Below, in pieces: positions 3,462 through 62,876 of a stretch of 62,876 nt of DNA. The stretch comes from a virus, in IMG/VR virus record IMGVR_UViG_3300048694_000377, positions 1-62,876 of that record; one strand, 5' to 3'. The stretch's first letter is position 1; each line of letters begins with the position of its first letter. The notes beneath the pieces were generated by a model. That model saw only the letters and a program-made list of their open reading frames with translations. It ran no database searches and was not told the DNA's origin. Position numbers and translations under genes: made by a program.

Positions 3462-4432
3462 TATTCACCTCTTTTCAATTGAGCAACCTGCTTTGCGTAC
3501 AGTTCCAAAGGAACCCCAAGTCTGCGAGCAATCGCGGCTTCGGATGCCTTTAACTTAATACGACTAGGCGGAGTGCTACGGGAGGCCGGAGCCACCACAG
3601 TAGCTGATTTTGCACGGCTTTGAGGTTTTTCCTCTTTTGCCGGAGTTTCGGACTCATCGTCCTGTTCAGCACCGAAATGTTCGGGAAAACGCTTTCGCAT
3701 TGTCTTGTCGATGGTTTTGAAGTATTCCTTCGTACCAACATAGTCCGCACCATACTCTCGCTGCAACTTCTTGTCAATACCCATTGCGGCCATCGTCATT
3801 TCTTCGTCTTTTCCAAACCACTCGGCGTTTTTAGCCATCCATTTCTGGGTGCGGTTTGTCAAAGGCGCGGTTTGCGGTTGTTGCTGAGAAGCTGGGGTGT
3901 ACTCTTTTTCTTTGACCTGCACAGGCTGCATGCGTTGTGCTTCACGAAGATGAGCGGCGGCATCTGCGACTTCAGCTTGAGCATCGGCAAGGGCGCTTGC
4001 ATCGCCGGCCTCAAATGCGGCTTTGAGCTTGTCTTTAGCTGCATTCAGGCGGGTTTCTGCGGCGTTTTTGTTAGTCTCGATGTAGCTCTTGCTGCCATTT
4101 GCAACTTGCTGTTGAAGGCGTTTGTTTTCCTCCAACACGCTCTTTGCAAACGCTTCAGCCGCCTCGCGCTCGCGCAAAGCTTCTTCTTTGGCACGGCGTT
4201 CGTCGTGATAGCCACGGGTGAACTTCTTGATGCGAGCTTGAACTTTCTCGTCATACGCAGCAAGTTCGTCTTCTGTAGGATCCTCCACCTTCTCTTTCAT
4301 GGGCTTGCGTCCACGATCTTGCGGGGGAGCATCATCCTCGATTTCAACTTCAAACTTGTCCTCGGCTGCTGCCTCGGCTTTGTTATCAACTTCGTCGGGG
4401 AACTTAAATTCTTCGCCCTTGAATGTTGCCAT
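3461..4432 (-). CDS. Capsid scaffolding protein
   Basis: 323 residues, very rich in Glu, Lys, Ala and Gln. An acidic N-terminal third is followed by a long coiled coil (about residues 60-165, with repeated Ala-Glu-Lys heptads) and a basic C-terminal helix (ARRLGVPLELYAKQVAQLKRGE). This matches internal scaffolds, in which the C-terminal basic helix contacts the capsid protein. Gene order (portal, scaffold, capsid) supports it. The ATG at 4432 follows a GGAG site. No protease motif is visible, so the scaffold probably leaves or is recycled as in P22. Confidence 0.82.
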   Translation of the reverse strand: MATFKGEEFKFPDEVDNKAEAAAEDKFEVEIEDDAPPQDRGRKPMKEKVEDPTEDELAAYDEKVQARIKKFTRGYHDERRAKEEALREREAAEAFAKSVLEENKRLQQQVANGSKSYIETNKNAAETRLNAAKDKLKAAFEAGDASALADAQAEVADAAAHLREAQRMQPVQVKEKEYTPASQQQPQTAPLTNRTQKWMAKNAEWFGKDEEMTMAAMGIDKKLQREYGADYVGTKEYFKTIDKTMRKRFPEHFGAEQDDESETPAKEEKPQSRAKSATVVAPASRSTPPSRIKLKASEAAIARRLGVPLELYAKQVAQLKRGE

Positions 4433-11082: not shown

Positions 11083-11109
11083 GGAACGGTCATTTCAACG
11101 CGGGAGCCC
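11083..11109. repeat. 27-bp direct repeat, copy 1
   Basis: Exactly repeated at 11935-11961. It begins GGAACGGTCA and ends GGGAGCCC. It starts 156 bp upstream of the paralogue A start; copy 2 starts 158 bp upstream of paralogue B, so the repeat belongs to a duplicated gene-plus-upstream unit. Confidence 0.85.
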
Positions 11110-11150: not shown

Positions 11151-11777
11151 TCAACCTATTTTGATATCAAAATTGAGTTCATCAAGGACATCACACGCCG
11201 CATCGATTCGGATCGGGTCGTTACATTCCCTCGCCAACTTGAACAGTCGATCCCTTGATGCTTTCAACGCATCACGATTGACCTCTGCCTGAGCCTTTGC
11301 CCTTTGTTTTACTGCCCTTTCCAATTCACCCAACAATGAGGATTTTTTCATCGGGTTCTGTGCTTGGTCGGCGTATGCTTTCTGTAGCATGCCAGTTAAG
11401 TCGGCGTCAGAATAGGCCTCAAATCGTTGCGCCAATTCCTGAGCCTTTTTGGCCCGTTCCTGAGCCTTTTTTTCGGCGGCCTCCGATTTTGCTTTTGGTG
11501 CTTCGATACCATAGGACTCGGTGAGCCTGCCCTTGAATCGGGCAAAGGCCTTGTCGGCGCTGTTCCCCTTTGCCTGTGGTTTGACGCTAACATAGGCATT
11601 GACCCAACTGATGCGGCATTGGTTCCAATGGTCAATGGTTGGATCGGTTCCAAGGGTTCTAGCGTAAACCTCTAACGAGCCCTGTGCGTCAATTTCCGAT
11701 TTTGCAAACATGCGCCCTGCCTCGCATGCGCCCTCAATGGTGGGCACTGCCACCTGTGTTGCTATTGTGTTGCTCAT
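11151..11777 (-). CDS. Paralogue B of a tandem pair, unknown helical protein
   Basis: 208 residues with the ATG at 11777 after a TTGGAG site. Same layout as the neighbour at 10223: helical N-terminus (RMFAKSEID, YARTLGTDPTIDHWNQCRISWV), a Lys/Ala/Glu coiled coil (AAEKKAQERAKKAQELAQRFEAY), then a helical C-terminus ending in CDVLDELNFDIKIG, which matches LEVLDEYTDIAYTI-like text in paralogue A. It has its own terminator, and a dyad sits 25 bp upstream of its start, over the likely transcription start. Divergent from the early operon. Function unknown; the duplication implies dose or specialisation matters. Confidence 0.75.
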   Translation of the reverse strand: MSNTIATQVAVPTIEGACEAGRMFAKSEIDAQGSLEVYARTLGTDPTIDHWNQCRISWVNAYVSVKPQAKGNSADKAFARFKGRLTESYGIEAPKAKSEAAEKKAQERAKKAQELAQRFEAYSDADLTGMLQKAYADQAQNPMKKSSLLGELERAVKQRAKAQAEVNRDALKASRDRLFKLARECNDPIRIDAACDVLDELNFDIKIG

Positions 11778-11801: not shown

Positions 11802-11828
11802 AACATGATGACCCCTTGTCATCATGTC
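11802..11828. promoter_or_regulatory. 27-bp dyad, copy 2
   Basis: Half-sites AACATGATGAC and GTCATCATGTC with 5 bp between; 10 of 11 positions are symmetric. It begins 25 bp upstream of the paralogue B ATG, just past a TATTAT box on the minus strand, where a repressor would block initiation. Confidence 0.65.
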
Positions 11829-11934: not shown

Positions 11935-11961
11935 GGAACGGTCATTTCAACGCGGGAGCCC
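11935..11961. repeat. 27-bp direct repeat, copy 2
   Basis: Identical to 11083-11109 and placed 158 bp upstream of paralogue B. Its retention without a change suggests a recent duplication or a selected site. Confidence 0.85.
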
Positions 11962-13625: not shown

Positions 13626-14717
13626 ATGGAAGTCAGACTCTCAACCGAAATCTCTTTGAACGAAGCCGAGGAACTCATCCTTGCTATCGGACATACAAAC
13701 GCTGTGCATCTTGTCGGCGAACCAGGGGTCGGCAAAACTGCGATGTTTGAGCGCATCGTAGACAGAACAGGGTTTCGTGGCATCTACATAGATACGCCTA
13801 ATACAGAGTTAGGTGACATTGGCATCCCCATGCCCAACCATGAGACCAAGACCACATCTCTGTATCCCAACGACCATTGGGGTTTCCACACTGGTGAACC
13901 ACTGGTGATTTTCATTGACGAATTCACCAAGCCCTCATCACAGGCTGTCCAAAACATGCTACACCCACTGCTCAACGAGCGCCGGATCGGTGGCTTTAAG
14001 CAACACAAAGACACCATCGTCATCACGGCGGGTAACAACACAACCGATGGCGTGGGCGACATGCTCAAAGCTCACTCTTTGAACCGACTCACTGTTGTGC
14101 CTATCAAGAAACCACACGCAGGGTTTAACGCCGATGGTAGCGTGGATGAGGACTCATGGGGTATGTGGGCTATCCAGAACGACATTGCAGAGGAAGTGGT
14201 GGCTTGGATCAAAGCCTACCCGCATGCCCTTGCATCGTATCGTGACCCAAGCCAAGCCGACAACCACTACATCTTCAACCCCAAGACTCCGCAGAAATCG
14301 TATGTGTCGCCTCGCTCACTTGCACGGGCAAGCAACATCGTCAAGGGCAGAGACTCCATCACACGCAATGCTCTCATTACTGCGCTATCAGGAACCATTG
14401 GTGAGCCTGCTGCCAGAGACATGGTGGCGTATGTGGAAGTGTCCGACTCCCTGCCGACATGGGCAGAAGTGATCGCTGACCCCAAGGGTGCGAAACTCCC
14501 ATCGTCACCTGCGGCGTTGAACATCATGGCGTTTGGTGCTTTGCAACGGATTGACCGAGCAACTGTGGGCCCATGGTTTGACTACCTGAAACGCACACCG
14601 AAAGAACTTCAATCGGTGTTTTGCTTGTCTGGTATGAAGCACCCCGAGAAGAAGCAACTCATGGTAACGAACGGCGCATTTGTCAACTGGATGCGTGACA
14701 ACCAGTATTTGTTCTGA
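13626..14717 (+). CDS. MoxR-type AAA+ ATPase
   Basis: 363 residues. Walker A GEPGVGKT at 31-38, Walker B VIFIDEF at 94-100, sensor 1 TAGNN near 134-138, and DMLKAHSLNRLTVVPI in the arginine-finger region, in the order of MoxR/RavA AAA+ ATPases. The segment GIYIDTPNTELGDIGIPMP between Walker A and B is the usual MoxR insert region. MoxR proteins act as hexameric remodelling machines that load or activate a partner with a VWA domain; such a partner is encoded 618 bp downstream (15335-16579). Partner pairing is inferred from family rules and operon order; the phage target is unknown. Confidence 0.88.
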   Translation: MEVRLSTEISLNEAEELILAIGHTNAVHLVGEPGVGKTAMFERIVDRTGFRGIYIDTPNTELGDIGIPMPNHETKTTSLYPNDHWGFHTGEPLVIFIDEFTKPSSQAVQNMLHPLLNERRIGGFKQHKDTIVITAGNNTTDGVGDMLKAHSLNRLTVVPIKKPHAGFNADGSVDEDSWGMWAIQNDIAEEVVAWIKAYPHALASYRDPSQADNHYIFNPKTPQKSYVSPRSLARASNIVKGRDSITRNALITALSGTIGEPAARDMVAYVEVSDSLPTWAEVIADPKGAKLPSSPAALNIMAFGALQRIDRATVGPWFDYLKRTPKELQSVFCLSGMKHPEKKQLMVTNGAFVNWMRDNQYLF

Positions 14718-14729
14718 GAGGAAAGAAGC

Positions 14730-14858
14730 ATGACTGCACATGAACTCTACGAAGCCCTTGATCAAATGAAGATCAAGTATGAAGTGGTGGAAATCTTTGA
14801 AGGCGCAAGGTTCTTGCGTATCGAAGTGGAAGAGGAGGATGAAGATGCTGACGCATGA
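14730..14858 (+). CDS. 42-residue acidic peptide
   Basis: MTAHELYEALDQMKIKYEVV at the N-terminus, then a beta-like EIFEGARFLRIEVEEE and an acidic end DEDADA. The ATG follows a GAGGAAAG site 13 bp after the MoxR stop. Length and acidic tail suit a small adaptor or inhibitor. The next gene starts inside its last codons. Not recognised. Confidence 0.6.
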   Translation: MTAHELYEALDQMKIKYEVVEIFEGARFLRIEVEEEDEDADA

Positions 14859-14934
14859 AGAGAAGATGGTGCGAGTGGTGCTACTCGTTGCCGTCATTGT
14901 GGTGTTACTTGATATCTTAATTTGGAGGCCATGA
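14845..14934 (+). CDS. 29-residue single-pass membrane peptide
   Basis: The sequence starts MLTHEEKMVR and continues with one hydrophobic helix of about 18 residues (VVLLVAVIVVLLDILIW), ending RP. The ATG is preceded by GAGGAGGAT. It overlaps the 42-residue gene by 14 bp, and its stop shares a base with the next gene's ATG. The predicted topology is N-terminus in the cytoplasm. The MoxR-module setting hints at a membrane anchor, but a simple inner-membrane effector is equally possible. Confidence 0.55.
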   Translation: MLTHEEKMVRVVLLVAVIVVLLDILIWRP

Positions 14935-15206
14935 TGGGAGAAAGCCGCAAAGTTATGGATCACGAAGACCAAGTGGTCATGCACGACTTGTTCGAAGCCT
15001 TGACCGACTTCATCGGTGAGAAGGATGTGGACATGAATGTGATCATGCACGCCTTGTGTCGCACCATTGCATTTGGTGGTGTGCAACTAAATCGCCACGA
15101 CGAAGTGACCAAGCGTCACTTTGTCTCCATGGTGGTTGAATCTGTGAGTGCCCACTACGACCATTTCGTTGAAATGATTCAACAACACGGAGAGCATGAT
15201 GACTGA
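14934..15206 (+). CDS. 90-residue helical protein in MoxR module
   Basis: The ATG at 14934 lies 6 bp after GGAG; the adjacent ATG at 14931 is too close. The sequence is helical and rich in Met, His and acidic residues (VVMHDLFEALTDFIGEKDVDMN, then SAHYDHFVEMIQQHGEHDD at the end). A dyad overlaps codons 56-64. The downstream gene starts within its last codons. Family unknown. Confidence 0.65.
   Translation: MGESRKVMDHEDQVVMHDLFEALTDFIGEKDVDMNVIMHALCRTIAFGGVQLNRHDEVTKRHFVSMVVESVSAHYDHFVEMIQQHGEHDD
15099..15125. promoter_or_regulatory. 27-bp dyad, copy 6
   Basis: Half-sites GACGAAGTGAC and GTCACTTTGTC with a 5-bp spacer, 10 of 11 positions symmetric. It lies inside the 90-residue gene. Confidence 0.65.
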
Positions 15207-15351
15207 AGCCGACTTTATTTTTGCTTGGCTGTTAGCAAGCCGAGTCAATCCGAGCGTGCGATGGACTGATGAATCCACGCTCAACCATATCAACAAAGCA
15301 AAGCAGATCTATCGCAAGATCATGGAGAGTAGCAATGCAACTAACCGCTGA
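15199..15351 (+). CDS. 50-residue protein in MoxR module
   Basis: The ATG at 15199 is 6 bp after GGAG and overlaps the end of the previous gene. The sequence begins MTEADFIFAWLLASRVNPSV and continues with RWTDESTLNHINKAKQIYRK and a short tail. It is probably two helices. The VWA-peptidase gene starts inside its 3' end. Not recognised. Confidence 0.6.
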   Translation: MTEADFIFAWLLASRVNPSVRWTDESTLNHINKAKQIYRKIMESSNATNR

Positions 15352-16579
15352 ACAACGCATCGAGAGGGTGCATGTCAACCTGATGCAGAGTAAATTGTTC
15401 TGTCAATTCTCTGGTTTATTCATGGTAGGCAAAGTCACAGTAGATGACGACTGCCCGACCGCATACACCAACGGGCGAGATGTAACCTACGGACGCAACT
15501 TTGTGGGGGTGCTCAACGACAAGCAACTCGCTTTCCTTGTATTGCATGAAGCCTTGCACAAAGCGTATCGGCACATGACTGTGTGGGCAGACATTGCAAA
15601 GATCGACAAGCGTCTGACCAACAACGCCATGGACTATGTGATCAACTTGCAAATCAGGGACGCCGACCCCTACGAGCAAGAGGTTGCCATGCCAAGAGAC
15701 CCGCAGACTGGCAAGCTCATGGGCTTGTATGACGAGCGGTTTCGTGACATGGATACCAAACAAGTCTTTAACCTACTTCTGGAAGAATCCGGTGGGGGTG
15801 GCGGTGGTGGTAGCGGGAAAGGCAAAGGACAAAGTGACGGCGGGTCACCAAGTCAAGGCGAGAGTGACAACTTTGACGACCACGACTGGGATGGTGCGCA
15901 AGATATGTCCGAGGAAGAAGAGGAAGAACTCGGGCGCGAGATCGACTCCGCATTGCGTGAAGGTGCTATGTTAGCAGGGCGCATGAAAGGCAATGTCGAT
16001 CGCAACATCGACCAACTCTTGCATCCTAAGGTGGACTGGCGTGAAGCACTGCGAGACTTCATCAAACTTGCAACCAAGGGAGGTGATCAGTCTACATGGC
16101 GCCGACCAAACCGCAGGTTTCTTGGCGTAGATATCGTGATGCCAACATCGGAAAGCCGTAAAGCTGAGATGTTTGTTCTTGGTATCGACACATCAGGATC
16201 GATCGGAGGGCAAGCGCTTGCACAGTTTCTTGGCGAAGTCAAGACCATTTGCGACGAGGTGGCGCCCGAGACCATCGAACTTCTGTATTGGGATAGCCAT
16301 GTCGCACGACGAGAAACATACAAGGGGCACGAGGTGCAAGACCTCACCGAGACCACGAAACCCGCAGGGGGTGGTGGCACTACGCCTGAGTGTGTGCCGA
16401 GGTTTATGGTTGAGAACCGCATCGAACCACAGTGCGTGATCATGCTGACCGATGGCTACTTCAATAGTGATGGGTGTGGGGACTGGGCGGGCGTGTCTGC
16501 GCCTGTTCTGTGGTGTGTGTATGGCAAGCGTGACTTTGTGCCAACCACTGGCCAAAGCGTTTATGTCGATGGATTGTGA
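15335..16579 (+). CDS. VWA-domain protein with HExxH metallopeptidase-like domain
   Basis: 414 residues from the ATG at 15335 (GGAGAG site); 22 upstream in-frame residues lack a site. Residues 1-150 are a peptidase-like domain with HEALHKAYRH (H71-E72-H75) in an active-site helix. Residues 152-200 are a Gly/Ser then acidic linker. Residues about 275-414 are a VWA-like domain with the MIDAS signature GIDTSGS (D285, S287, S289) and MLTDGYF. This is the architecture of DUF2201-type proteins, the usual partners of MoxR ATPases. It probably binds metal and target and is remodelled by the upstream ATPase. Whether the peptidase cuts anything is not known. Confidence 0.88.
   Translation: MQLTAEQRIERVHVNLMQSKLFCQFSGLFMVGKVTVDDDCPTAYTNGRDVTYGRNFVGVLNDKQLAFLVLHEALHKAYRHMTVWADIAKIDKRLTNNAMDYVINLQIRDADPYEQEVAMPRDPQTGKLMGLYDERFRDMDTKQVFNLLLEESGGGGGGGSGKGKGQSDGGSPSQGESDNFDDHDWDGAQDMSEEEEEELGREIDSALREGAMLAGRMKGNVDRNIDQLLHPKVDWREALRDFIKLATKGGDQSTWRRPNRRFLGVDIVMPTSESRKAEMFVLGIDTSGSIGGQALAQFLGEVKTICDEVAPETIELLYWDSHVARRETYKGHEVQDLTETTKPAGGGGTTPECVPRFMVENRIEPQCVIMLTDGYFNSDGCGDWAGVSAPVLWCVYGKRDFVPTTGQSVYVDGL
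15828..15854. promoter_or_regulatory. 27-bp dyad, copy 7
   Basis: Half-sites GACAAAGTGAC and GTCACCAAGTC with a 5-bp spacer, inside the Gly/Ser linker codons of the VWA gene, where codon choice is free. The outer right positions are the least conserved of the set. Confidence 0.5.
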
Positions 16580-19452: not shown

Positions 19453-19658
19453 CATTTGATGAATGGTGGGTCACGCTCACAGAGCCAGAGCAAAAGCTGC
19501 TTGGTCGCACCAACGCCAAGTATGTGTGGGTGTGCGCCCGTGATGCCTGCGCAGAGATAGCCCTTCAAGGTACGGGCGAAGCCATGCAGACAAAAACTTT
19601 GGAGATTCTGAATACAGAACGACTGAGGATTGCAAAGAACATCAAGGAGAAGACATGA
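19449..19658 (+). CDS. 69-residue protein of unknown function
   Basis: ATGA overlap with the previous gene. The N-terminus MTFDEWWVTLTEPEQKLLG is followed by AKYVWVCARDACAEIALQGTG and a basic C-terminal helix. This W-rich start followed by a predicted helical core is often seen in small phage proteins of replication modules. No function known. Confidence 0.6.
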   Translation: MTFDEWWVTLTEPEQKLLGRTNAKYVWVCARDACAEIALQGTGEAMQTKTLEILNTERLRIAKNIKEKT

Positions 19659-19978
19659 ATGGTTATCCAACCAAGCCACTTACAAAGCAACAAGACCAAG
19701 CGTTGCGAGAATGGTTACAAGAATCCATCGTGCCATTGATCGAGCAAGTGCTGGTCAAGAAGATTGGTCAAGCGATGCAGTATGCGGCTGAAGAACTTAT
19801 ACAGCCCAAATGTGACCGCATCCACTGTCGTTGTGGCCTTAAGAGTGAATGGCAGGGACTGACGGATGATGAAGTGTCCAAAATCCTAGACGATGTGATT
19901 GGCTTCAACAGTTGTTGGGGGCCAGAAACTGAATTCGCCCGAGCCATCGAAGCCAAACTCAAGGAGAAAAACTCTTGA
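19655..19978 (+). CDS. 107-residue protein of unknown function
   Basis: The ATG overlaps the preceding stop and has an AAGGAG site. A helical N-terminal half (QALREWLQESIVPLIEQVLVKK) is followed by a Cys/His pair region (CDRIHCRCG) and an LTDDEVSKILDDV segment ending in FARAIEAKLKEKNS. This end resembles the common phage tail motif with a helical FARAIE stretch. No function assigned. Confidence 0.6.
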   Translation: MNGYPTKPLTKQQDQALREWLQESIVPLIEQVLVKKIGQAMQYAAEELIQPKCDRIHCRCGLKSEWQGLTDDEVSKILDDVIGFNSCWGPETEFARAIEAKLKEKNS

Positions 19979-20304
19979 ACTATTACATTTTTGCAAACGG
20001 TATCGAATTAGTTTTTGACGAAATCAATGATGGGGTGTTTGCTTGTTTTGTGGGCAGGGAGAAAATGCTTGCCTTAAGAAATTACAAACACCCGATATTT
20101 GAGCAATCGGTCTGGGACTTGGAGTTGAGCGTGCGTGCGACCAACTGTCTGAAGTCGGAGGGAATCGAAACGATTGGTCAACTGCTTGAGCGTTTGAGAG
20201 ATAACTGCCACTACCTCACAAGAGTTCCTAATATTGGCAAAGTGACTGAGCGAGAAATAAAAGATGCGCTCAGAAACAGAGGTTTGAGTTGGGGGGAGAA
20301 ATGA
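19975..20304 (+). CDS. RNA polymerase alpha-CTD-like protein
   Basis: 109 residues from a TTG that overlaps the previous stop and follows AAGGAG. Residues about 47-107 match the bacterial RNA polymerase alpha C-terminal domain almost without gaps: DLELSVRATNCLKSEGIETI, then the helix-hairpin-helix VPNIGK and EIKDALRNRGLSWGE. DNA-contact residues equivalent to E. coli R265, N268, C269 and G296 are present (R54, N57, C58, G88); the K298/S299 pair is V/T here. The 261-patch residues D259 and E261 are kept. The N-terminal 46 residues are not the alpha N-terminal domain, so it cannot assemble the core. It may bind UP-like DNA or sigma to redirect host polymerase. Confidence 0.85.
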   Translation: MNYYIFANGIELVFDEINDGVFACFVGREKMLALRNYKHPIFEQSVWDLELSVRATNCLKSEGIETIGQLLERLRDNCHYLTRVPNIGKVTEREIKDALRNRGLSWGEK

Positions 20305-21017
20305 ACCTCACCGCCCTTCAAGTTGAGCTGCTCAAGTGGCAACACTTTGTCCGTGAGCAAAAGACCCAGCACATCATCCTCTTTGAAGGGGTCGATGCCG
20401 CAGGCAAGTCCGGTGCCATCAAACGCTTCATGGAGCATTTAAACCCAAGGTACGCGCGTGTGGTTGCTTTGGACAAGCCGACCGAGCAGGAAGCCCGTCA
20501 GTGGTACTGGCAAAGGTACATCCAGCAATTCCCGAAAGCAGGGGAGATATGCTTCTTTGACCGCTCTTGGTACAACCGTGCAGGGGTTGAGCCCGTCATG
20601 GGGTTTTGCCGTAAGGATGAGACCTTTCTTTTTTTGCATGAGTGCCGTGATCTTGAGCCAGTTTTTAAACGCGCAGGCATCAGGCTGACAAAATTCTTCT
20701 TTTCCATTACCAGAGAGGAGCAAGCCAAACGCTTTGAAAGCAGGCAGACAAGTCCCCTGAAAGTGGGCAAAATGAGTGCTGTGGACTTGGAGAGTCAGAG
20801 GTTGTGGGAAGAGTATGGTGCCGCATACCAGACCATGATTGACACAACGCCTGATTGGATTATCGTCAACTCCAATGACAAAACCAAAGCCCGCATCGCC
20901 GCCATGCAGTACGTCCTCTTGAACAATGACTACCTTGGCAAAGACTTATCCGCCATTGGGGAAATCGACCCCGACATTTTATGGAGCCATGATGAAAAAG
21001 AAACTGACCATCGCTGA
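20301..21017 (+). CDS. ppk2: Polyphosphate kinase 2 (PPK2 family)
   Basis: 238 residues, ATG overlapping the previous stop. Walker A FEGVDAAGKSG at 28-38, the PPK2 signature FDRSWYNRAGVE at 86-97, and a lid region with FFFSITREEQAKRFESR and WEEYGAAYQTMIDTT. PPK2 enzymes transfer phosphate between polyphosphate and nucleotides, favouring synthesis of NDP or NTP from NMP or NDP and polyphosphate. Canonical members have GKGG where this has GKSG. Length is at the short end for the family. It sits between the alpha-CTD-like gene and the nucleotide/DNA genes, so it may draw on host polyphosphate to supply nucleotides for replication. Substrate class cannot be fixed from sequence alone. Confidence 0.93.
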   Translation: MNLTALQVELLKWQHFVREQKTQHIILFEGVDAAGKSGAIKRFMEHLNPRYARVVALDKPTEQEARQWYWQRYIQQFPKAGEICFFDRSWYNRAGVEPVMGFCRKDETFLFLHECRDLEPVFKRAGIRLTKFFFSITREEQAKRFESRQTSPLKVGKMSAVDLESQRLWEEYGAAYQTMIDTTPDWIIVNSNDKTKARIAAMQYVLLNNDYLGKDLSAIGEIDPDILWSHDEKETDHR

Positions 21018-21279
21018 ACCCGCACTGCGTGAAAAGAAGACTGGCAAGGTTGACCCTGCGCCCAGCAAAGCATGGAGCCATGAAGAGATTGAGGTGTCCA
21101 AGGATGTTAAGGACAAGGACGTCAAGCGCGGATTCGTGACCAACACCGGCAAGTTCGTGGACCGCAAGAAGGCCGCCAAAATTGCCAAAGCCGCCGGTGA
21201 AATCAAGAAGCCTGTAAAGAAACTTCATTCCCACGATTTGCGTCAGGGCGCAGGCATCAAGAAAAAGGTTATGAAGTGA
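20992..21279 (+). CDS. Lysine-rich small protein
   Basis: 95 residues from the ATG at 20992, 5 bp after GGAG, overlapping the kinase end by 26 bp. Very basic: KKKLTIAEPALREKKTGK, then a conserved-looking RGFVTNTGKFVDRKKAAKIA and LHSHDLRQG. This middle pattern (GFV...GRFVDR..A..IA) recurs in small phage proteins of unknown function. It may bind nucleic acid. Confidence 0.65.
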   Translation: MKKKLTIAEPALREKKTGKVDPAPSKAWSHEEIEVSKDVKDKDVKRGFVTNTGKFVDRKKAAKIAKAAGEIKKPVKKLHSHDLRQGAGIKKKVMK

Positions 21280-21287
21280 AGGCTGGC

Positions 21288-21509
21288 ATGAAGTGCCCCG
21301 AGTGTGGGGCCTGGACTGAAGTGCTTGAGACAAAGAAGATCAGAAATACCAACATAATCAAACGAAGGAGGGAATGTGGAAACGGACATAGGTTCACAAC
21401 GCACGAGCAAGTCGCCTACGTCGAGACGCCGAGAAAAAAAGCAGATCGACTGGCAGTCATGGAATCCCTTTCAAAGAGCAACGGGCGAAGCCTTACGCCA
21501 ACTAAATAA
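21288..21509 (+). CDS. NrdR-like zinc ribbon protein
   Basis: 73 residues from the ATG at 21288 (AAGG site); a GTG at 21276 is an alternative start. The N-terminus copies the zinc ribbon of the ribonucleotide-reductase repressor NrdR: MKCPECG, VLETKKIRN, IKRRRECGNGHRFTTHE. The fourth ligand is a His (CGNGH rather than C-x2-C). The ATP-cone of NrdR is missing, since the protein ends about 30 residues later. It may bind NrdR-box-like DNA, or be a different zinc-finger regulator. No ribonucleotide reductase gene is in this genome. Confidence 0.7.
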   Translation: MKCPECGAWTEVLETKKIRNTNIIKRRRECGNGHRFTTHEQVAYVETPRKKADRLAVMESLSKSNGRSLTPTK

Positions 21510-31321: not shown

Positions 31322-31345
31322 CCCTGCTTCGGCGGGGTCTTTTTT
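31322..31345 (+). terminator. Terminator of early operon, facing late genes
   Basis: A CCCTGC/GCGGGG stem with a TTCG tetraloop and T-run TCTTTTTT. The last T bases overlap the stop codon of the convergent giant gene. Confidence 0.85.
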
Positions 31346-34300
31346 ATCTGTTGCCGTAGTAGAGCATTGGGCCGGTGCGACCGTACAATTTTTCGTCCAG
31401 CTTTGCGCCCATAGCTTCGGCTTGTGCTTTTGCTTCTGCACGGGCGTCAAACGACTTGTCGATAGCATCGCCGTCAATAGCGGCTTGCGGGTATTTAAGG
31501 GAAAACTCGTTGGCTTTTGCCAAGGCATCTGTGTAACTTGGCGTACCACGCTCCATCCACAGCCGGTTTAACAAAGTGTTACGACGGTCAAGGATTTTTT
31601 GCTGGTAGGTTTTGGCTTGGATAGCAGCTTTTTGCGCCAGCGCTAGTTTTTCCGGTTGCAATCCAATCGCTTGCATAGCCAAATTCCAAGTGGTGAATTC
31701 TTCTGGATACAAGCCACCGATGACTTCGCCGCTACGGGTTGTTGCGCCTTCAGTACCGAGTCTATATGCAGTCCCCGGTTTTGAAAACAGCGCGGGCGCA
31801 GCTTTCTCGTACGCTTTGAGGAATTGACCTTCACTCGCCAATTGCCAAGCGTCGGCCCAATTGAACCCAAGGCCAACGGACGGGCCAAGATTAGCAAACA
31901 CTTCTTGTTGAAACGATTCGCGGGCGTCTGGCGAATAACGACCTTCGCGCCACCACAAATTTTTCATATCCAAACTGACACGGTCTGCAAGAGACGTGCC
32001 GGTCAAAGCAGCAACAGGCCCCCGTGCAATAGCTAAGCCAAGTTGTTTACCCGCTTCTTCAGACTTGCCAGCCGCCATACCCATCTTGGTAAAGATCGCG
32101 GCCGCCGCTCCGCCAACGTCTTTCGCCATAAAGTTGTAGAACCAGTTCTCCCAATCAAAGAACTCGTCGTCGTCATCATCCGGAGCAAACATTTTGATCA
32201 ATGTGCCCAACATTGAGAAGAAGGGCTGAGCTGCGATACCACCAAAGAGGAATGTCATGCCCATAACGCCAGCCAAACGTTTCATACCTTCACGGTAAAT
32301 CTCTTTGCGGTACGCTTCGGCTTCGTCCAAACGTTGGTCAATTACAGTTTGCGACAACCCGTCCTTAATCATTTGCTGCCGAAACTGCTCAATCTCAGCT
32401 TTACGAAACGGAGCACCAACACTCAGATAGAAGTCTCTCAGTACGTTGTATGTAGCTGTGATGGCGTACTGTTTGAACTGTGTAATCAAGTTGACTGATG
32501 GCACCGTAAAGATACGACCCTTCATCTGACGGGTATAGTCACCAAGCGTCAAACCAGCAATATCGCGTGCTTCTTGAATGGCAAGCTCAAATGCTTCGTT
32601 TGAAGTGTACTTAGCTGGTTGCCCAGTGGTAGGGTCGCGTTGCACCACACCACGAATGTCTGTGCGGTCGGCTTTAGAAAACTTCTCATGTGCAAGTTCA
32701 AACGCAGTCAGCAGTGCAACTTCTCGGTTGAAACGTTCGCCCTGATGGAACAAGCCCGACATCACCTTTTTGATCGTATTGACTTTGCCAGTATAGAGGG
32801 CAGACGGCTGCTCACTCATGTCAAAAATGTCATTGGTCATGGAGATGTTGATATCTCCGTCGTCAATAAATCGGTCTGCGGCTCGCTTAAGCAATGGGTT
32901 TAGCGTAGCGCCTTCTACAAGAGAGGGGAAAGATACCTGCATAAAGTTGCCGGTTACCAGTGGCGCCAGCGAACGCTTAGGCATCGTAGCTGAATACAAA
33001 GCGGCGTTCTTGAGCATCAGCGCATTTGTTCTGGCATAACCATATCGAGCGCCAATTCGTGGCATTGTAAGTACGGCCATGCCGACAGTGTTCAACAACA
33101 CGCTTGCAGGCGCCGACAGCATGAAGTAGAACGTTGTGTTTGTAACCGCACCGACAGCGCGAGCGACAGGACTTGTGTCTTCTACGCCAAGAACGTTCTT
33201 TGTGCGGTTTTCCAACTCAAGCACATAATCACGATACACCGCTCCTTGCTGGGGAGTAATGAAATGATTAGCCTCCAAGTCGTCGATATAGCCCCGTGCA
33301 TTGTTGATGTTGTTGACGAATGGCTCGGCAAACTTAAAACGTGCTTGTTGATATGCGCTATGCACGGCGGTCTTGGAGAACACCCGCAGCATGTCTGCGC
33401 TTGCACCTTGAATAGCTTTGCGGTTGATAAACATCTTGCGCATGCTCTGTTCAGGCAGCAACAAATAGATCAATTGGTTAATGCTATCTTTGATTTCAGC
33501 CTTCAACCCCGGCACATCGGTAGCAGTCAGCCCATCTACAACTTTTTCCATGTCACGCAAAACTTGCGTGGTAGCAACATTCTTTGAGAACAATTCCGAG
33601 ATGCCATCGCCCATGCGCATGGTTTCAGCGGCGGCTTGCTGTTGTTTATTCCCAGCCAACAATTGGCGGCGACGCTTGTTAAACGCAAAATTCCGTGCAG
33701 TTGCGCTTTCAAAAGTATAGAACTCTTTAAAGTCGCCTTTACCAATTTGGAACCAGTGTTTGCCAAAACGACGCAACGGGAAGTAAGGTTTGACCAATTT
33801 ATCTGGGCCAAACTGTTCATTGATTTTGCGGATCATTTCTTGGCGCTCGGCCTTGGGCAACCCCAAGGCGCGTTGCTTCATCGTGCGGACCATCTCTTTG
33901 ACAGAGTCGGCGTAGAACTCACGCACTTCACGATAGAGCTGTTTGAACTCAGGCTTCAGAGCATTCCAAGCATTGTCAAGCGCATCAGGTGCAGCACCGG
34001 GTGCTGGACCCAAGTCTGGGTCACGAGAACGAATGGTCGCCTCAATCATGATGCGGCCCATCAAACCAGATTGTTTGGGGTTGTTGCTTTGTAGCTTAGA
34101 CCATTTTTGAACAATGTCTTCCGCAATTTTAATTTTCTTACCGCGATATGACACCATCTGCTCAACGATGTTAACGGCGCCTGTAATTTGCGGGAACTTG
34201 GTTCGAGTCAGGTCTTTGAGCTGGCGCAATTGCAGCACTGGCAAAACGACAGCACGGACTGCTGTGCCGCTGGCGTTCCACAAAGCACCGCTCAAGTCTT

Positions 34301-37300
34301 TTAAAGCCGAGCCCAAAGGCACGCGGCCTTTTACCGCATCGGACAGTTCATCTTGGATTGTCGTTTGCACCGACTCGGCGGTGCGCCAAGTGTCAGGCTT
34401 GCTGATTGGGCCGCGAACGCGCTTCCCCTTGGCAAACACCAAAGGCATAGCAGCTACACCTGCCGGACGTTGCGGAGACAACAACTCATTGATGGCAGAC
34501 ATAGAGGCACCGGCTAAATTGCCAAGGCCAAACATATCTGCCACTACCTGCAAAAACCGATTGAATAGCGAAGTCTTTCTGGGTGGGTATTGCACACCTT
34601 TGAGCTTGGCTTGGAACTTTGGGTTTGTCATCGCTTCGGCGACAAACTCAGATATGTTTCTAAACCCATACTCATCGGGCGACAGTTTGGTCTGCGCATA
34701 CGCATACATTGCAAGCAAATCTTTCTTAGCCTGAGCCTGCGCAGGGGTTAGAGCTACCTTTTCGGCAAGAATGTAATCCGTAGCAGCATGCACAATTTCA
34801 TGCAACACTGTGCGGTTGCTGGAGCCAAAGAAGTCGTCCGGTTTGATATTGATCGTATCAAGGGTCGGCGCAAAAAAGCCGCGTGCCGTCAGTCCCGGCA
34901 TGGACTTGTTGTAGGCAAGGCGCACTGCGCCAAGCTCAGTGTTCACTGGGCCAATGTTGATGCCCGACCCCGGTAGCCTACGCAACCCCTCAAACACTCG
35001 CTCAAGGTTCTCGGCCTTGTCGTAGTCTTTGAAGTGCTGCTCGTAGAACTTGGGAGCCTCACGGCTCAAGTATGCAAACAGCCGAAGTTGCTCTTGCGCA
35101 GAACGGTCATCTATTACTCTTTTAACCAGCGCACGTTGGTTGTTAAAAATAATGTTGGTTGGCAAATTCAGTTCGGCCAAACGTTTAGCCAACTCTGAAT
35201 AAAGACCTGACGTGGTGCGTGCAATTGCACGCAGGGCTCCGTTAACATCGTTGCGGTTGATAGCATCTACGATGTCTTGGTTCAGTCCTTTTACGCTTGC
35301 TGGAGCAGTGCTTCCAGTTGTTCGGGGGATTCCGCTTGTTGGGTTAACAGCACCAGCGGCTCGTAGAGCTTCATACCCTGTTGGTCCCCTTCCTGCCGGT
35401 AGAGGCCGTATTGTGTCCGGGTCGCGACTTGCAGCGCTTCCATCCGATGCTGAGGCGGAACCTTTTTCGTAGTCTCTAAGAGACTTTGCAGTGTTTGCAG
35501 TTGTTGAACGTCCATATGCTTCCCTCATTGCGGTGTATGTTGATTCGTGCCGAGTCAGCACATCCATGAGTGCATCACGGAAGTAGTCGGCAAGACCTTC
35601 GTCGGCAAAGTACTGGCGCACTTTTAGCATGTGCGCGTTGTGGCCTTCACCGTGGCCCATGTCTCCAGTATGGGCGATTTCGTGGGTCATAGTTTCCCAC
35701 AAATACTCTCGCACACCAAACAGTGTCTTGGCCCCGAAATCATAGAACGGATTAACCAACACGGCCTTGTATGGCACTTTAATATGTACGCCACCGTATT
35801 GTTTGTCGACCGATACACCCGCAAAGAACAAATTCTCAGGCTTCAATACATCGTAGCCATACATGCGGCTATCGGCTGCGGCTTCTTTCATTTCCACCAT
35901 CAGCGTGCCAAGTTCAGCAAAGAACTGCTCGGGATTGCCATACTCGCTACCAACCGCAAGTAAGTCAACATTGGTGTTGTTATGGAAGATTGGCAGCTTC
36001 GGGTCTTGCGACATTTGCGTGAGGAAGTCCTCCATTTTGGGGGCTTCTTTTTCCGCTTTGAAAGTGCCTTCTCTTTCTTTTTCTTGTTTTTTAGCAGTAT
36101 CGGCCAGCACTTTGCCAGTGTCTATTGCAACAACTTTAGTACCTTCAATTCGCACTTCTTTTGGCATTGGCGGCAATTCTTTACGCTCACCGGTGCCACG
36201 TTGGTCAAAAGCTTTGCGTAGCTTTTTGGAAGCATCAGCAATATCTTTGCCCGCCTCAACGCGAGGCATAGACACAATATTTTTGAAGTTTTCTTGCAAA
36301 TCTGCGGCTTCATTCCCGCGAGCAATTTTTGCAAGGTATTCTTGCAAAGCCTCGATATCGTTTTTTAACCGACCTTTAAATCGCTCGCGACTATTTTCAA
36401 ACGGATAGTCAGGGTGCTTTGCTTCAACATTAGGTTTGATGTTAACAATAATGTCGTACGGAATTTTTTCTTGTTGGTTTAGCTTGAAATCGGAATTGAA
36501 CTGATACACACCAGAAGAAAGCACTTGGTGTTTAATGCTCCAATTGCTGCCGGAATTACGTTCTTTGCTGAAATAAATGTCAGCGCTACCCCAGTCAAAA
36601 TTAACTTTGAACTGAATGTACTTGTCTGCGGGGAACTCAAGTCCAACTGGCAATGTGGTTACATCATCGCCAAACGAAGATTTTTTTATGGTTTCGACGG
36701 TTACCGGACCAATCAATGGCTGTTGCAACGCATCATAGAATTCAGGATTACCCGAAAAATAAATGTCTTTTTTATCGCCCGTTTTAGGATCAGTATAGTG
36801 TTCAGGAATCTTAACTGTAACAGTCGTGCCGTGCTCGCTTTTTGGCGCAGGTGATTTGACTATCTGAAAATTGCTTTTAGCGATATCTTGAGCCGAAGTA
36901 TCAACCCGTACCCGCACGCCATCTCGAACGGTATCAAGGATCAAACGTTCTGAGCCAAGCATAAACCCCATTTTGGCCAAACCCAAACCGCCGCTTCGTT
37001 GGTTTACAGGAACGTCAGATTTATCGGACCCTGCTACAGTGAAAAACGCGTTGCGAACAATCTCAGGTGTCATGCCCCGAGCGTTGTCAGTTACAGTAAT
37101 GGTACGGGCGTCGTCATCAATGGTAATGGTAATTTTGCCACTTTTATACAGCGGTGTAATTTTTTCACCAGCGCCGTTAACATTTGATACTGCACCCTTC
37201 ACAGCGTCAAATGCGTTTTGCAATAATTCTTTAACTGCAACATCGGCAACTGTACCAGCGTACATATTTGCACCGAGTAATTGGATCAAGCCGCCCATGT

Positions 37301-40211
37301 CGGCATTGAGTTTGCCTTGCTCCGAGCCAAATTTTTTATCTTCACCCGGCATAGCCATTGCAGCGGTCTTGCTTGTGGTGTCGGGGCGTGCAATAAGTTT
37401 AACGCTAGTCTTGGGTACGCGATAGTACGCTTTTGCATTTTTAGCGCCATCGGGGTGTACTTTGACGTGCGCGGCATCCACGCCGACCACGACGCCATTG
37501 GTATTGCCGTACCGAACCATATCGCCAACCATGAAGTCGGACGTAATTTTATTAACGGTGTCTTTGATGCGGTCGCCAAGAGCGTTGATTTCGTCGCTAC
37601 CGTAGTATGGCTTATCTTCAACAGGCTTGGGTGTTATAGAATCGACTGGCGACTCAGGCACATTCAGATCAGTAGCCGGTGCAGGCTTATTTACCGGCGC
37701 GGTCTGTGGGGGTACGCCTTTACGCCGATTTAATTCCGCAGTAGCGAGCTCGTACTCTTCGTCAGTCGCCATCCCCATAACGCCTGCAATCTTGACGTCG
37801 TCAAGTTCGTCGTCCGTCATTTTGCGGAAGCGATCTTGTTTTTGTTCTATTGCTTCGGCGGGTGCAGGCTCAGCTTTTACAGTAGGCTCGGCTTGAATAG
37901 CCTCACGCTCTGCTATGCGCTCGTATTCGACGGCTTCTTCGTCAGACAGCAGCCCACGGCCATACAGAAGCTCAATTGCTCGCATGCCGTCTTTTTCAAG
38001 TTGCTCGCGTGCGGCATCAATTTTTTCTTGACTGCCAGCTTTCTTGCCTTTGTAGCCTTTGTATTTCGCCATGGCTTGATTGGCAAGCCGAACAACACCT
38101 CCGGCAATTTGACTTTGTAAGTCCAGCAATTCACGGTCTTCAGCACTGGCTGTTGCTTTGGCGGCAGCACGCTTGCCTTGGTTCTCGCCCGTAATAGCCG
38201 GGTGGTCCCATTTAGCTAGACGGGTTTGAATAAATGACAAAGCATCGTTTGCCTGATCAAGAGCAGCTCGATACGGTTGCAACGCTTCGGGCAGTTCTGA
38301 AGAAGGTTTGCTGTACAGGTCGTTATAAAACGTGTCAAGCTGTTTGTTAATTCCAGTGATGTACGGCAGCAACGGGGTTTGCCGCGCGGAGACAACGTCT
38401 CCATACGGATATGCCGAAAGTTGATTTGGGCCTACTGCACCGGGCTCAACTCTTTCTCCTTGAGGAGTTGCTGCAACATTCGGTCCAGCAGAAACCATTC
38501 CATTTGTGACAGGCGCTCCAGCTCCTGCGGGGGTGGCGACTTGACCGGGCTCTCCAGCCACTGGAACGCCAGCTCCACCTGTTGGGGCGATAGGTTGTCT
38601 AGCATCTTGTCCTCCTTGCGCTGCCAGTTGGTCTTTCGCATCTTGAGCGTCTGCCTCTTTATCTAGCTCGTCAATCAGCTCTTCAATAGTTTTCTTACGT
38701 CCGCCAAGGAAACCTTTAGACCGCGCAAGTTCTTCGGCAGTCATAGGCAGACCACCGCGCTCAGCTTTAAGCTGTAGCTGCTCAACTTGCTCACGAATAA
38801 GATCGTTAGTCCGACCCAGTGCTTTTGCTAACGCAGCGTGACCACCGCCCATAGCGGCTCCCGCCATAAGACTTTGAGCACTGGCTTTGCCGATATCTTT
38901 ATCCCATGGTTGCCCCAAAGCAAGATTAGTAAAAATCTGTTCTTGTACACCTTGCGGCAGTTCTTCAAGCAGGCCTTCTTTAGCCATTTCTTTGAACACT
39001 GCTTTGGCAAACGGATCTTTACCAAGCCCCACTCCGCCTTTAACACCTGCAACACGAGCAGCAATCTCGGTCTCAATATCACCAATACCAAATTTGCTTG
39101 CTACTTTGCCAGATACCATGCCGATCGCCGCAGTACCAAGTCCAGCAGCAATTGCAGGGGCAACGTATTGGCCCCAGTCTCGGCCTTGCTCTCGCGCCTG
39201 CTCAGCAATAGAACCAGTCGTTTGCACGCCTTCAGCGGTACTTGCAGCGGCGGCAATACGCGGGATTTGATCTTTAACTTTGTCTTTGATAAATTTCTGA
39301 GCAGCATAACCTTTTAGCCCGCGCTCGGCGGCTTCTTCAGTTGCTTGCATCATCAGCATTTTGGTAAGCTGCCCACCGGCAGCGCCTGACGCCACGGTGC
39401 CCGGAATAGATTCAACAACCATCGTAGTCAAAGCTACGGGGTTAACCGATAAGGCTTTTAGCGTGTCGATAAATCCTTGAGCACGCTCAACTTCTTCTTG
39501 TTGAGTTTGCGCAATCGGTGTTTGCAGGCCTGTAAAAAACTTGTTAGTTTGCTCGGGTTTGTAGCCGAGCTTATCCATCATCTTGCCCCACTGCCCGATA
39601 TTTAATGGGTTGTCGGGATACCAGCCGGTCAAAATGTTGGCAAGACCAATCGCAGTCTGTCCAAGCCCAACAACACCTTTAGCTCCTGCTAACCCTACAT
39701 CGCGGGCAAGATCAATCGGGCCGTAGTAGCCCTGCGCTTCTTTTTCACGCTGAAGTTTTTCAGCATCAAGCTGTTGGTTGCGCTCCTCAATTGCACGAAG
39801 CTGCTCTTGTACTGCTTGATTTCTTTCAATGATGGATTGCGCCTGTTGCAATCCCCGCCCGGGGGTAAACATGACAGACTCAGGGCTAACGCTGCGCCGC
39901 ATTGCCTCCAAGTTTTTCTGCGCATCAACTGTCGGTGGCTCCATCTTGACGCCACGTTCAAAAATTGATCCACCAGCAGGAGGGCCCGCAACATCCATGA
40001 TGGCAGACCCCAAGTCACCACCCATCGCATCGCCTACTGGCGCGGATTCTTCTGCCGCAACTTTAGTTGCAGGTTTTAAACCTATCTTTGTGTCAAACTC
40101 TGCGCGTGGTATATCCGAATAAAACTTCTGATACAACGCACCAGCCAATGCGTCGTCTGACATATCAGAATATTGCGGATACTTCTCGCGGATTTCTGCA
40201 ATGCTTGGCAT
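31344..40211 (-). CDS. Giant polyvalent internal virion protein
   Basis: 2955 residues, 14 percent of the genome. N-terminus MPSIAEIREKYPQYSDMSDD is a short domain typical of phage ejection/polyvalent proteins. Hydrophobic stretches follow (about 170-195 and 350-365). Residues about 960-1140 form a GHKL-type ATPase: ELLQNAFDAV near 995-1004, TDNARGMTPE near 1041-1050, GGLGLAKMGF near 1074-1083. Two zinc-peptidase signatures come next, HEIAH at 1510-1514 (with GEGHNAHML) and HEIVH at 1804-1808. The C-terminal 900 residues have two hydrophobic regions (about 2355-2385, 2645-2670). Such proteins are packaged and injected with DNA. It is the last late gene. Confidence 0.88.
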   Translation of the reverse strand: MPSIAEIREKYPQYSDMSDDALAGALYQKFYSDIPRAEFDTKIGLKPATKVAAEESAPVGDAMGGDLGSAIMDVAGPPAGGSIFERGVKMEPPTVDAQKNLEAMRRSVSPESVMFTPGRGLQQAQSIIERNQAVQEQLRAIEERNQQLDAEKLQREKEAQGYYGPIDLARDVGLAGAKGVVGLGQTAIGLANILTGWYPDNPLNIGQWGKMMDKLGYKPEQTNKFFTGLQTPIAQTQQEEVERAQGFIDTLKALSVNPVALTTMVVESIPGTVASGAAGGQLTKMLMMQATEEAAERGLKGYAAQKFIKDKVKDQIPRIAAAASTAEGVQTTGSIAEQAREQGRDWGQYVAPAIAAGLGTAAIGMVSGKVASKFGIGDIETEIAARVAGVKGGVGLGKDPFAKAVFKEMAKEGLLEELPQGVQEQIFTNLALGQPWDKDIGKASAQSLMAGAAMGGGHAALAKALGRTNDLIREQVEQLQLKAERGGLPMTAEELARSKGFLGGRKKTIEELIDELDKEADAQDAKDQLAAQGGQDARQPIAPTGGAGVPVAGEPGQVATPAGAGAPVTNGMVSAGPNVAATPQGERVEPGAVGPNQLSAYPYGDVVSARQTPLLPYITGINKQLDTFYNDLYSKPSSELPEALQPYRAALDQANDALSFIQTRLAKWDHPAITGENQGKRAAAKATASAEDRELLDLQSQIAGGVVRLANQAMAKYKGYKGKKAGSQEKIDAAREQLEKDGMRAIELLYGRGLLSDEEAVEYERIAEREAIQAEPTVKAEPAPAEAIEQKQDRFRKMTDDELDDVKIAGVMGMATDEEYELATAELNRRKGVPPQTAPVNKPAPATDLNVPESPVDSITPKPVEDKPYYGSDEINALGDRIKDTVNKITSDFMVGDMVRYGNTNGVVVGVDAAHVKVHPDGAKNAKAYYRVPKTSVKLIARPDTTSKTAAMAMPGEDKKFGSEQGKLNADMGGLIQLLGANMYAGTVADVAVKELLQNAFDAVKGAVSNVNGAGEKITPLYKSGKITITIDDDARTITVTDNARGMTPEIVRNAFFTVAGSDKSDVPVNQRSGGLGLAKMGFMLGSERLILDTVRDGVRVRVDTSAQDIAKSNFQIVKSPAPKSEHGTTVTVKIPEHYTDPKTGDKKDIYFSGNPEFYDALQQPLIGPVTVETIKKSSFGDDVTTLPVGLEFPADKYIQFKVNFDWGSADIYFSKERNSGSNWSIKHQVLSSGVYQFNSDFKLNQQEKIPYDIIVNIKPNVEAKHPDYPFENSRERFKGRLKNDIEALQEYLAKIARGNEAADLQENFKNIVSMPRVEAGKDIADASKKLRKAFDQRGTGERKELPPMPKEVRIEGTKVVAIDTGKVLADTAKKQEKEREGTFKAEKEAPKMEDFLTQMSQDPKLPIFHNNTNVDLLAVGSEYGNPEQFFAELGTLMVEMKEAAADSRMYGYDVLKPENLFFAGVSVDKQYGGVHIKVPYKAVLVNPFYDFGAKTLFGVREYLWETMTHEIAHTGDMGHGEGHNAHMLKVRQYFADEGLADYFRDALMDVLTRHESTYTAMREAYGRSTTANTAKSLRDYEKGSASASDGSAASRDPDTIRPLPAGRGPTGYEALRAAGAVNPTSGIPRTTGSTAPASVKGLNQDIVDAINRNDVNGALRAIARTTSGLYSELAKRLAELNLPTNIIFNNQRALVKRVIDDRSAQEQLRLFAYLSREAPKFYEQHFKDYDKAENLERVFEGLRRLPGSGINIGPVNTELGAVRLAYNKSMPGLTARGFFAPTLDTINIKPDDFFGSSNRTVLHEIVHAATDYILAEKVALTPAQAQAKKDLLAMYAYAQTKLSPDEYGFRNISEFVAEAMTNPKFQAKLKGVQYPPRKTSLFNRFLQVVADMFGLGNLAGASMSAINELLSPQRPAGVAAMPLVFAKGKRVRGPISKPDTWRTAESVQTTIQDELSDAVKGRVPLGSALKDLSGALWNASGTAVRAVVLPVLQLRQLKDLTRTKFPQITGAVNIVEQMVSYRGKKIKIAEDIVQKWSKLQSNNPKQSGLMGRIMIEATIRSRDPDLGPAPGAAPDALDNAWNALKPEFKQLYREVREFYADSVKEMVRTMKQRALGLPKAERQEMIRKINEQFGPDKLVKPYFPLRRFGKHWFQIGKGDFKEFYTFESATARNFAFNKRRRQLLAGNKQQQAAAETMRMGDGISELFSKNVATTQVLRDMEKVVDGLTATDVPGLKAEIKDSINQLIYLLLPEQSMRKMFINRKAIQGASADMLRVFSKTAVHSAYQQARFKFAEPFVNNINNARGYIDDLEANHFITPQQGAVYRDYVLELENRTKNVLGVEDTSPVARAVGAVTNTTFYFMLSAPASVLLNTVGMAVLTMPRIGARYGYARTNALMLKNAALYSATMPKRSLAPLVTGNFMQVSFPSLVEGATLNPLLKRAADRFIDDGDINISMTNDIFDMSEQPSALYTGKVNTIKKVMSGLFHQGERFNREVALLTAFELAHEKFSKADRTDIRGVVQRDPTTGQPAKYTSNEAFELAIQEARDIAGLTLGDYTRQMKGRIFTVPSVNLITQFKQYAITATYNVLRDFYLSVGAPFRKAEIEQFRQQMIKDGLSQTVIDQRLDEAEAYRKEIYREGMKRLAGVMGMTFLFGGIAAQPFFSMLGTLIKMFAPDDDDDEFFDWENWFYNFMAKDVGGAAAAIFTKMGMAAGKSEEAGKQLGLAIARGPVAALTGTSLADRVSLDMKNLWWREGRYSPDARESFQQEVFANLGPSVGLGFNWADAWQLASEGQFLKAYEKAAPALFSKPGTAYRLGTEGATTRSGEVIGGLYPEEFTTWNLAMQAIGLQPEKLALAQKAAIQAKTYQQKILDRRNTLLNRLWMERGTPSYTDALAKANEFSLKYPQAAIDGDAIDKSFDARAEAKAQAEAMGAKLDEKLYGRTGPMLYYGNR

Positions 40212-62709: not shown

Positions 62710-62876
62710 TCAGTCGAAGTTACCGTAGGGGTAGGTCGTGGTGGTTCCGATGTTGGGATCAAGCTGCTTGTATCGAGCAGTCAGATACAAGGTTCCCGCG
62801 TTAGGAGCAGGGGTGCCAGTACCAGTCAATGCCAGAGTGAACACAAGCTGAGAGAAAGTTCCAGGCTCAACCACAC
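62710..62876 (-). CDS. 3' end of the join-spanning virion gene
   Basis: The TGA at 62710-62712 ends the gene whose ATG is at 653. Bases 62750-62876 duplicate 1-127, so in the closed genome the gene is 62710-62749 joined to 1-653, 230 residues. Confidence 0.88.
   Translation of the reverse strand, partial: VVEPGTFSQLVFTLALTGTGTPAPNAGTLYLTARYKQLDPNIGTTTTYPYGNFD
62750..62876. repeat. Right copy of 127-bp terminal overlap
   Basis: Identical to 1-127. Remove one copy when closing the circle. Confidence 0.93.

Follow-up and report, generated by a model that had tools for sequence, protein, structure and literature searches.

What a phage might do with the C-terminal domain of the bacterial RNA polymerase alpha subunit (alpha-CTD), detached from the remainder of that subunit, is the question raised by a small gene in the IMG/VR record IMGVR_UViG_3300048694_000377, the 62,876 nt of which are referred to here as the window. 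The strongest bacterial promoters owe their strength to the reading of UP elements by the alpha-CTD. In E. coli, residues of the 265 set contact DNA, the patch formed by residues 258, 259 and 261 faces sigma, and the 287 loop contacts activators.

The gene and its phage genome

The window has identical direct terminal repeats of 127 bp (1-127 and 62750-62876) and encodes capsid, portal and terminase genes, and therefore represents a complete or near-complete phage genome; the same features rule out host contamination of the record. Its nearest named relatives are phage 023Pt_psg01, Phage DSL-LC04 and the Pelagibacter phages HTVC027P and HTVC023P by terminase, and Rhizobium phages and Pseudomonas phage KPP25 by DNA polymerase (PolA), all at <60% identity. 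Genome searches found no phage RNA polymerase, in line with an earlier sequence-only reading of this DNA, and all searches agreed on this point, although the T7-type model matched no control genome either and that search thus had no positive control.

The gene of interest (19975..20304, + strand) lies within a + strand replication module, between a Holliday-junction-type nuclease gene (18747) and the DUF3310 and PolA genes (21558 and 22007). It is preceded by AAGGAG (19961..19966, +), read from the sequence as a likely ribosome-binding site, 8 nt before a TTG start codon. The TTG start is supported by the two homologues, in the phages L002 and L006, in which an ATG occupies the same place. Both ends of the gene overlap a neighbour: the start codon shares TTGA with the stop of the upstream gene (19655-19978), and the stop codon shares ATGA with the ATG that opens the following gene (20301). 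The gene is therefore part of a densely packed operon in which translation is probably coupled. The encoded protein of 109 aa (12.7 kDa) combines an N-terminal beta domain with an alpha-CTD, as indicated by the ORF, the PF03118 match, the homologues in L002 and L006 and the dN/dS estimates given below.

Several neighbours were recorded in their own right. Directly downstream, 20301-21017 (+) encodes a polyphosphate kinase 2 (PPK2; PF03976, E=3.5e-75), with related DNA in Moraxella phage Mcat6 at a place without an annotated gene. The 77-aa protein encoded at 21276-21509 (+) contains an NrdR-type zinc ribbon and is too short for an ATP-cone domain. At 13626-16579 (+), an AAA+ ATPase is followed by a DUF2201 metallopeptidase/VWA-like protein; the two are conserved in the phage group and resemble MoxR-VWA pairs. 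A 2955-aa protein (31344-40211, -) combines a GHKL (HATPase) domain, around residues 990-1137, with DarB-like and LPD39 segments.

Domain identity and contact residues

Residues 39-107 (20089..20295, +) were assigned to the alpha-CTD from PF03118, sequence matches in the PDB and a fold search. The PF03118 (RNA_pol_A_CTD) match spans residues 39-100 (E=3.4e-15, 55.9 bits against a cut-off of 23.8), and all 51 PDB sequences matched by phmmer were RNA polymerase alpha subunits (best E=1.3e-12). The HHH_5 profile (PF14520) reached 19 bits on the 109-aa protein, below its cut-off of 27 and 37 bits under PF03118, so that the best profile match is the RpoA alpha-CTD and not a DNA-repair helix-hairpin-helix protein. 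The AlphaFold2 model used here was built from a 40-sequence alignment, a first model from 3 sequences (pLDDT 52) having been set aside. It has a mean pLDDT of 81.6, with values of ~86-93 per 10-residue block over most of the CTD, and shows alpha-CTD topology and no different helix-hairpin-helix fold. In a Foldseek search of the PDB, all 31 matches at E<=0.001 were alpha subunits, or complexes matched through alpha subunits. The match to 1lb2_E covers 68 columns and superposes at 1.9 A, with a TM of 0.87 when normalized by target length, and isolated alpha-CTD chains in the PDB superpose over ~70 columns at 1.9-2.9 A. Because this model and the PDB matches both lead to alpha subunits, the assignment of the predicted fold is secure, and a helix-hairpin-helix protein other than alpha is ruled out by the sub-threshold HHH_5 score and the alpha-subunit-only fold matches. 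The sequence-only reading had thus correctly recognized a genuine alpha-CTD. It was also right that the RpoA N-terminal domain is missing: the RpoA model TIGR02027 scored 50.6 bits against a cut-off of 227.8, with a match confined to model positions 230-296, and the NCBIfam RpoA models were matched through their last ~70 positions only, far below their cut-offs.

That reading described the protein as a stand-alone alpha-CTD, which holds with respect to the missing RpoA domain but overlooks a separate conserved domain at residues 1-38 (19975..20088, +). AlphaFold2 predicts four beta strands in this region (residues 2-7, 10-18, 21-26 and 29-35; pLDDT ~65-74), and the motif YIFANG..L.F.E.NDGVF.C is conserved in it among the window phage, L002 and L006. 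We found the domain attached to this alpha-CTD family only. Residues 1-38 had no match in Pfam or PHROG, and the PHROGs gave no family for the whole protein. The N-terminal beta domain could set a quite different role for the protein.

The CTD is about 48-50% identical to that of E. coli, and the earlier description of residues 47-107 as matching nearly residue for residue is therefore too strong, although the identity of the domain stands. In the alignment, R265, N268, C269, L270, K271, N294, G296, E302, D259 and E261 (E. coli numbering) are retained, among them the Arg, Asn and Cys (R265, N268 and C269) already noticed as DNA contacts, and D258W, K298V and S299T are changes. Within the 265 DNA-contact determinant, R265, N268, C269, G296 and E302 are thus kept, with Val in place of K298 and Thr in place of S299; the K298 equivalent is Arg in L002. 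Together with a CTD pI of ~6.9, these two substitutions may indicate a weak or altered DNA affinity. The equivalent of Arg265, which makes a minor-groove DNA contact, is Arg54 (codon 20134..20136, +), aligned with an Arg that is invariant in 48 of 48 phage CTDs. In the 287-determinant loop, positions 285-288 differ from E. coli, and right after position 288 the alignment places a three-residue insertion, Cys78-His79-Tyr80 (20206..20214, +). This insertion is shared by the window protein, L002, L006 and L117 and is absent from the other aligned phage and bacterial CTDs, of which L173 has one residue there. The 261 patch had been reported as kept. D259 and E261 are indeed present in the window protein, but position 258 has changed to Trp and conservation of the patch already fails in L002, the closest homologue, where DLEL of the window reads ELGL (D259 to E, E261 to G).

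Relatives, accessory distribution and the wider phage family

Two-domain homologues in IMG/VR were confined to L002 (75% identity) and L006 (64%), both over the full length, and a pattern scan of 84,980 bacterial and archaeal genomes revealed no full-length two-domain relative. Among the three phages, the dN/dS estimates that ran were ~0.07-0.24, with synonymous sites near saturation, and the alpha-CTD gene is under purifying selection. For the same phage pairs, the alpha-CTD protein is 64-75% identical, compared with 48-58% for PolA.

The gene is nevertheless an accessory one, located in a variable stretch, and it is dispensable for the lineage, since most PolA relatives have no PF03118 match: 48 of 50 records were without it, the two exceptions being L002 and L006. 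These records were fetched mainly by PolA (loci at 53-88% identity), and many are fragments, so that single absences carry little weight. In L012, which has a PolA of 88% identity and also carries PPK2, other small ORFs occupy the place of the alpha-CTD gene. The position of the gene shifts within the replication module among the phages that carry it; in L006 it lies between the polymerase and exonuclease genes. The partner of the CTD varies as well. L117 (a 60.7-kb contig; 3752-4213, compared with 6905-7500 of L006) has lost the beta domain, and the ORF lying before the gene in L006 is there fused in frame, directly to the CTD. L118-L121 carry the CTD in this variable stretch as well, behind a phage domain with a match to phrog_2201. 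These architectures show the CTD to be constant and its partner exchangeable.

The domain was further sought in IMG/VR with an alignment confined to the CTDs of phages and bacteria, together with two peptide patterns. This domain-only scan retrieved 62 contigs with alpha-CTD proteins, all of them short (110-289 aa, except for two cut by contig ends), and the RpoA N-terminal domain was found in none of the 62, as judged from length and sequence. In 143 bacterial genomes from the class of Polynucleobacter, the strong matches fell into frames of RpoA length; frames of <60 codons contained just two matches, both weaker. Short phage alpha-CTD proteins in GenBank include those of Goe8, Mazun and Morrill, and BFVD holds several entries named 'RNA polymerase, alpha subunit, C-terminal'; a Foldseek search of viral models gave no match at E<=0.001 and several at 0.001-0.1 named as alpha C-terminal. 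Related short alpha-tail proteins thus occur in many phages, a point that the sequence-only reading did not include, and this suggests that phages repeatedly reuse the host alpha-CTD as a DNA-binding tool at promoters. Most deep forks of a CTD tree (71 columns) were left open, and single and multiple origin are therefore both compatible with it.

Among the fusions, a sigma-70 region 4 helix-turn-helix is joined to the alpha-CTD in viral proteins of L122 (3482-4189; Pfam E=1.1e-8) and L173-L176 (L173, E=1.7e-9), and in L139 by eye only. Unlike these, the 109-aa window protein has no Sigma70_r4 match in Pfam. The L173-type fusion has an additional C-terminal segment that resembles a helix-turn-helix. 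Such fusions may combine readers of the -35 element and the UP element in one polypeptide. Other partners of the CTD are coiled-coil-like segments and, in L172, a common phage domain that occurs on both sides of the CTD.

Among the 48 distinct phage CTDs compared, R265 was present in all and was the sole fully conserved column outside the scan patterns, followed by L281 (47/48) and E302 (42/48); G296, L270, N294 and C269 were also high but lie inside the scan patterns and are biased upward. The sigma-facing residues behaved differently from those of a small comparison set of 21 distinct bacterial CTDs, mostly from gamma- and betaproteobacteria: D259 was found in 10 of 48 phage CTDs against 15 of 21 bacterial ones (the remainder having Glu), and E261 in 21 of 48 against 18 of 21, with all 21 bacterial CTDs having D or E at both 259 and 261. 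The activator-facing 287 loop also drifts across the phage CTDs. The plain reading of this pattern is that selection would retain the DNA contact and not the contacts with polymerase partners. A role of the 261 patch toward sigma is accordingly not supported, as the patch is changed in L002 and drifts across phages.

A perfect 27-bp repeat, GGAACGGTCATTTCAACGCGGGAGCCC, occurs at 11083-11109 and 11935-11961 (+), far beyond chance, and the two copies lie ~157 bp upstream of genes that run leftward from 10927 and 11777, respectively. Its consensus across many relatives is GGAACGGTCAT...AACGCGGTAGCC. The suggestion that the alpha-CTD protein binds these sites together with a regulator did not survive comparison: the pair, or one copy near a contig end, is kept with 2-6 changes in relatives whose records have no PF03118 match (L024/L093, L052, L054/L098, L057, L061 and L062), and no such pair was found in G051 or, over the part that was covered, in G052, both of which encode an alpha-CTD. 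The repeat is thereby rejected as a target of the protein; the sites may be late-promoter or regulator elements of the phage group. Separately, the inverted repeat CATGATGAC-CCCTT-GTCATCATG at ~11806-11827 lies immediately upstream of the leftward gene that begins at 11777; an imperfect copy precedes the gene beginning at 10927, and the repeat is a possible operator.

Possible functions of the phage alpha-CTD protein

We regard the protein as having an even chance of being an early phage DNA-binding protein that modulates transcription by the host RNA polymerase. Arg54, together with Asn86 and Gly88 of the helix-hairpin-helix, would grip the minor groove of A+T-rich DNA, and the protein would occupy UP-element-like sites upstream of promoters. 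DNA binding had been proposed from the sequence before, and the invariance of Arg265 in 48 distinct phage versions supports it by inference. That other phages fuse the alpha-CTD to sigma-70 region 4, as in L122 and L173, points to work at promoters. The purifying selection, the place of the gene in the replication module, the searches that found no phage polymerase and the precedent of T4, for which this surface matters, also count in favour; the accessory distribution of the gene counts against. Because the faces that contact sigma and activators are not maintained, the protein would most likely act by occupying sites or by delivering its N-terminal domain, and not by replacing the alpha-CTD of the polymerase. 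The outcome could be either host shut-off or help to phage promoters, and the sequence is compatible with both. One special case of such modulation, specific competition with the host alpha-CTD at strong ribosomal and other host promoters leading to host shut-off, is possible but on balance doubtful. The retained DNA-contact Arg, the unmaintained sigma and activator faces and the early-type operon position agree with it; against this, K298V and S299T may reduce affinity, and a free monomer would be a poor competitor of a tethered domain unless abundant or dimeric.

It is unlikely, though still worth weighing, that the alpha-CTD serves as a general A+T-rich DNA-binding domain in phage replication, recombination or genome handling and not in transcription. 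The gene does lie among replication and nuclease genes, as its place between polymerase and exonuclease in L006 illustrates, and the helix-hairpin-helix core and Arg265 are kept as the faces for transcription factors drift. However, the gene is accessory and mobile within the module, being absent from most relatives that have these replication genes, and the sigma region 4 fusions elsewhere indicate promoters. A protein decoy, mimicking the host alpha-CTD to titrate regulators that bind it or NusA-type factors, is less probable again. The alpha-CTD is a docking surface for activators, Spx and NusA, and the fold matches include alpha-CTD complexes with CAP and others; but a decoy would be expected to retain its partner faces ahead of the DNA contact, whereas here the 287 loop has a three-residue insertion, positions 285-288 are unlike E. 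coli and the 258/259/261 patch drifts. The patchy distribution would also suit a neutral passenger in the form of a decaying piece of a host gene, picked up by recombination, which we consider highly improbable: dN/dS values of ~0.07-0.24 among three phages contradict decay, the full-length two-domain homologues are 64-75% identical where PolA is 48-58% identical, and identity to even the best bacterial alpha-CTDs found is ~47-50%, which rules out recent capture from host rpoA.

Taking the modulation of host transcription as the preferred reading, we tentatively propose, with rather less than even confidence, a broader view. Phages may have domesticated the alpha-CTD as a portable UP-element-binding module, freed from the polymerase and fused to many phage domains (the beta domain, sigma-70 region 4, a coiled coil and others), which would redirect or silence the host RNA polymerase at A+T-rich promoters.

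Comparison with known systems

Short phage alpha-CTD proteins are already present in databases under automatic names and are not a new kind. In the open-access journal literature searched, we came across no paper devoted to an alpha-CTD protein encoded by a phage, no experimentally characterized short phage alpha-CTD protein, and no description of the beta-domain architecture, the three-residue insertion or the conservation pattern across fusions. With the bacterial RpoA alpha-CTD (PF03118; E. coli residues ~248-318), the window protein shares the fold, the helix order and R265, N268, C269, N294, G296 and E302; it differs by having a 38-aa beta domain instead of the RpoA N-terminal domain, by the 3-aa insertion in the 287 loop and by D258W, K298V and S299T. 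The phage proteins A0A6J5M7I6 (uncultured Caudovirales phage) and A0A5Q2WLP1 (Mycobacterium phage Mithril) also contain an alpha-CTD and bear the automatic name 'RNA polymerase, alpha subunit, C-terminal'. Proteins of this type are longer than the window protein; uncultured Caudovirales entries show a weak fold match to it over 60-73 columns, and uncultured-phage entries of similar length are 26-36% identical. The 'RNA polymerase subunit alpha' of Bacillus phage Goe8 (210 aa) and the 'DNA binding protein' gp26 of Microbacterium phage Mazun (141 aa) resemble the window protein in having an alpha-CTD without the RpoA N-terminal domain, but differ in N-terminal sequence, host and phage group and have distant CTDs (~40% identity). 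A function for the window protein would extend to many phage genes that are now only automatically named.

The Alt and ModA proteins of phage T4 ADP-ribosylate Arg265 of alpha and thereby block its contact with the UP element (PMC2988020, PMC2988021). They, too, represent phage action on the contact between alpha-CTD and UP element through Arg265 (PMC2988021), but they are enzymes that modify the host domain and are unrelated to the window protein, which is a copy of the domain itself. Widespread phage copies of the alpha-CTD, with Arg265 kept throughout our sample and a drifting sigma patch, would constitute a second route to the target of T4.
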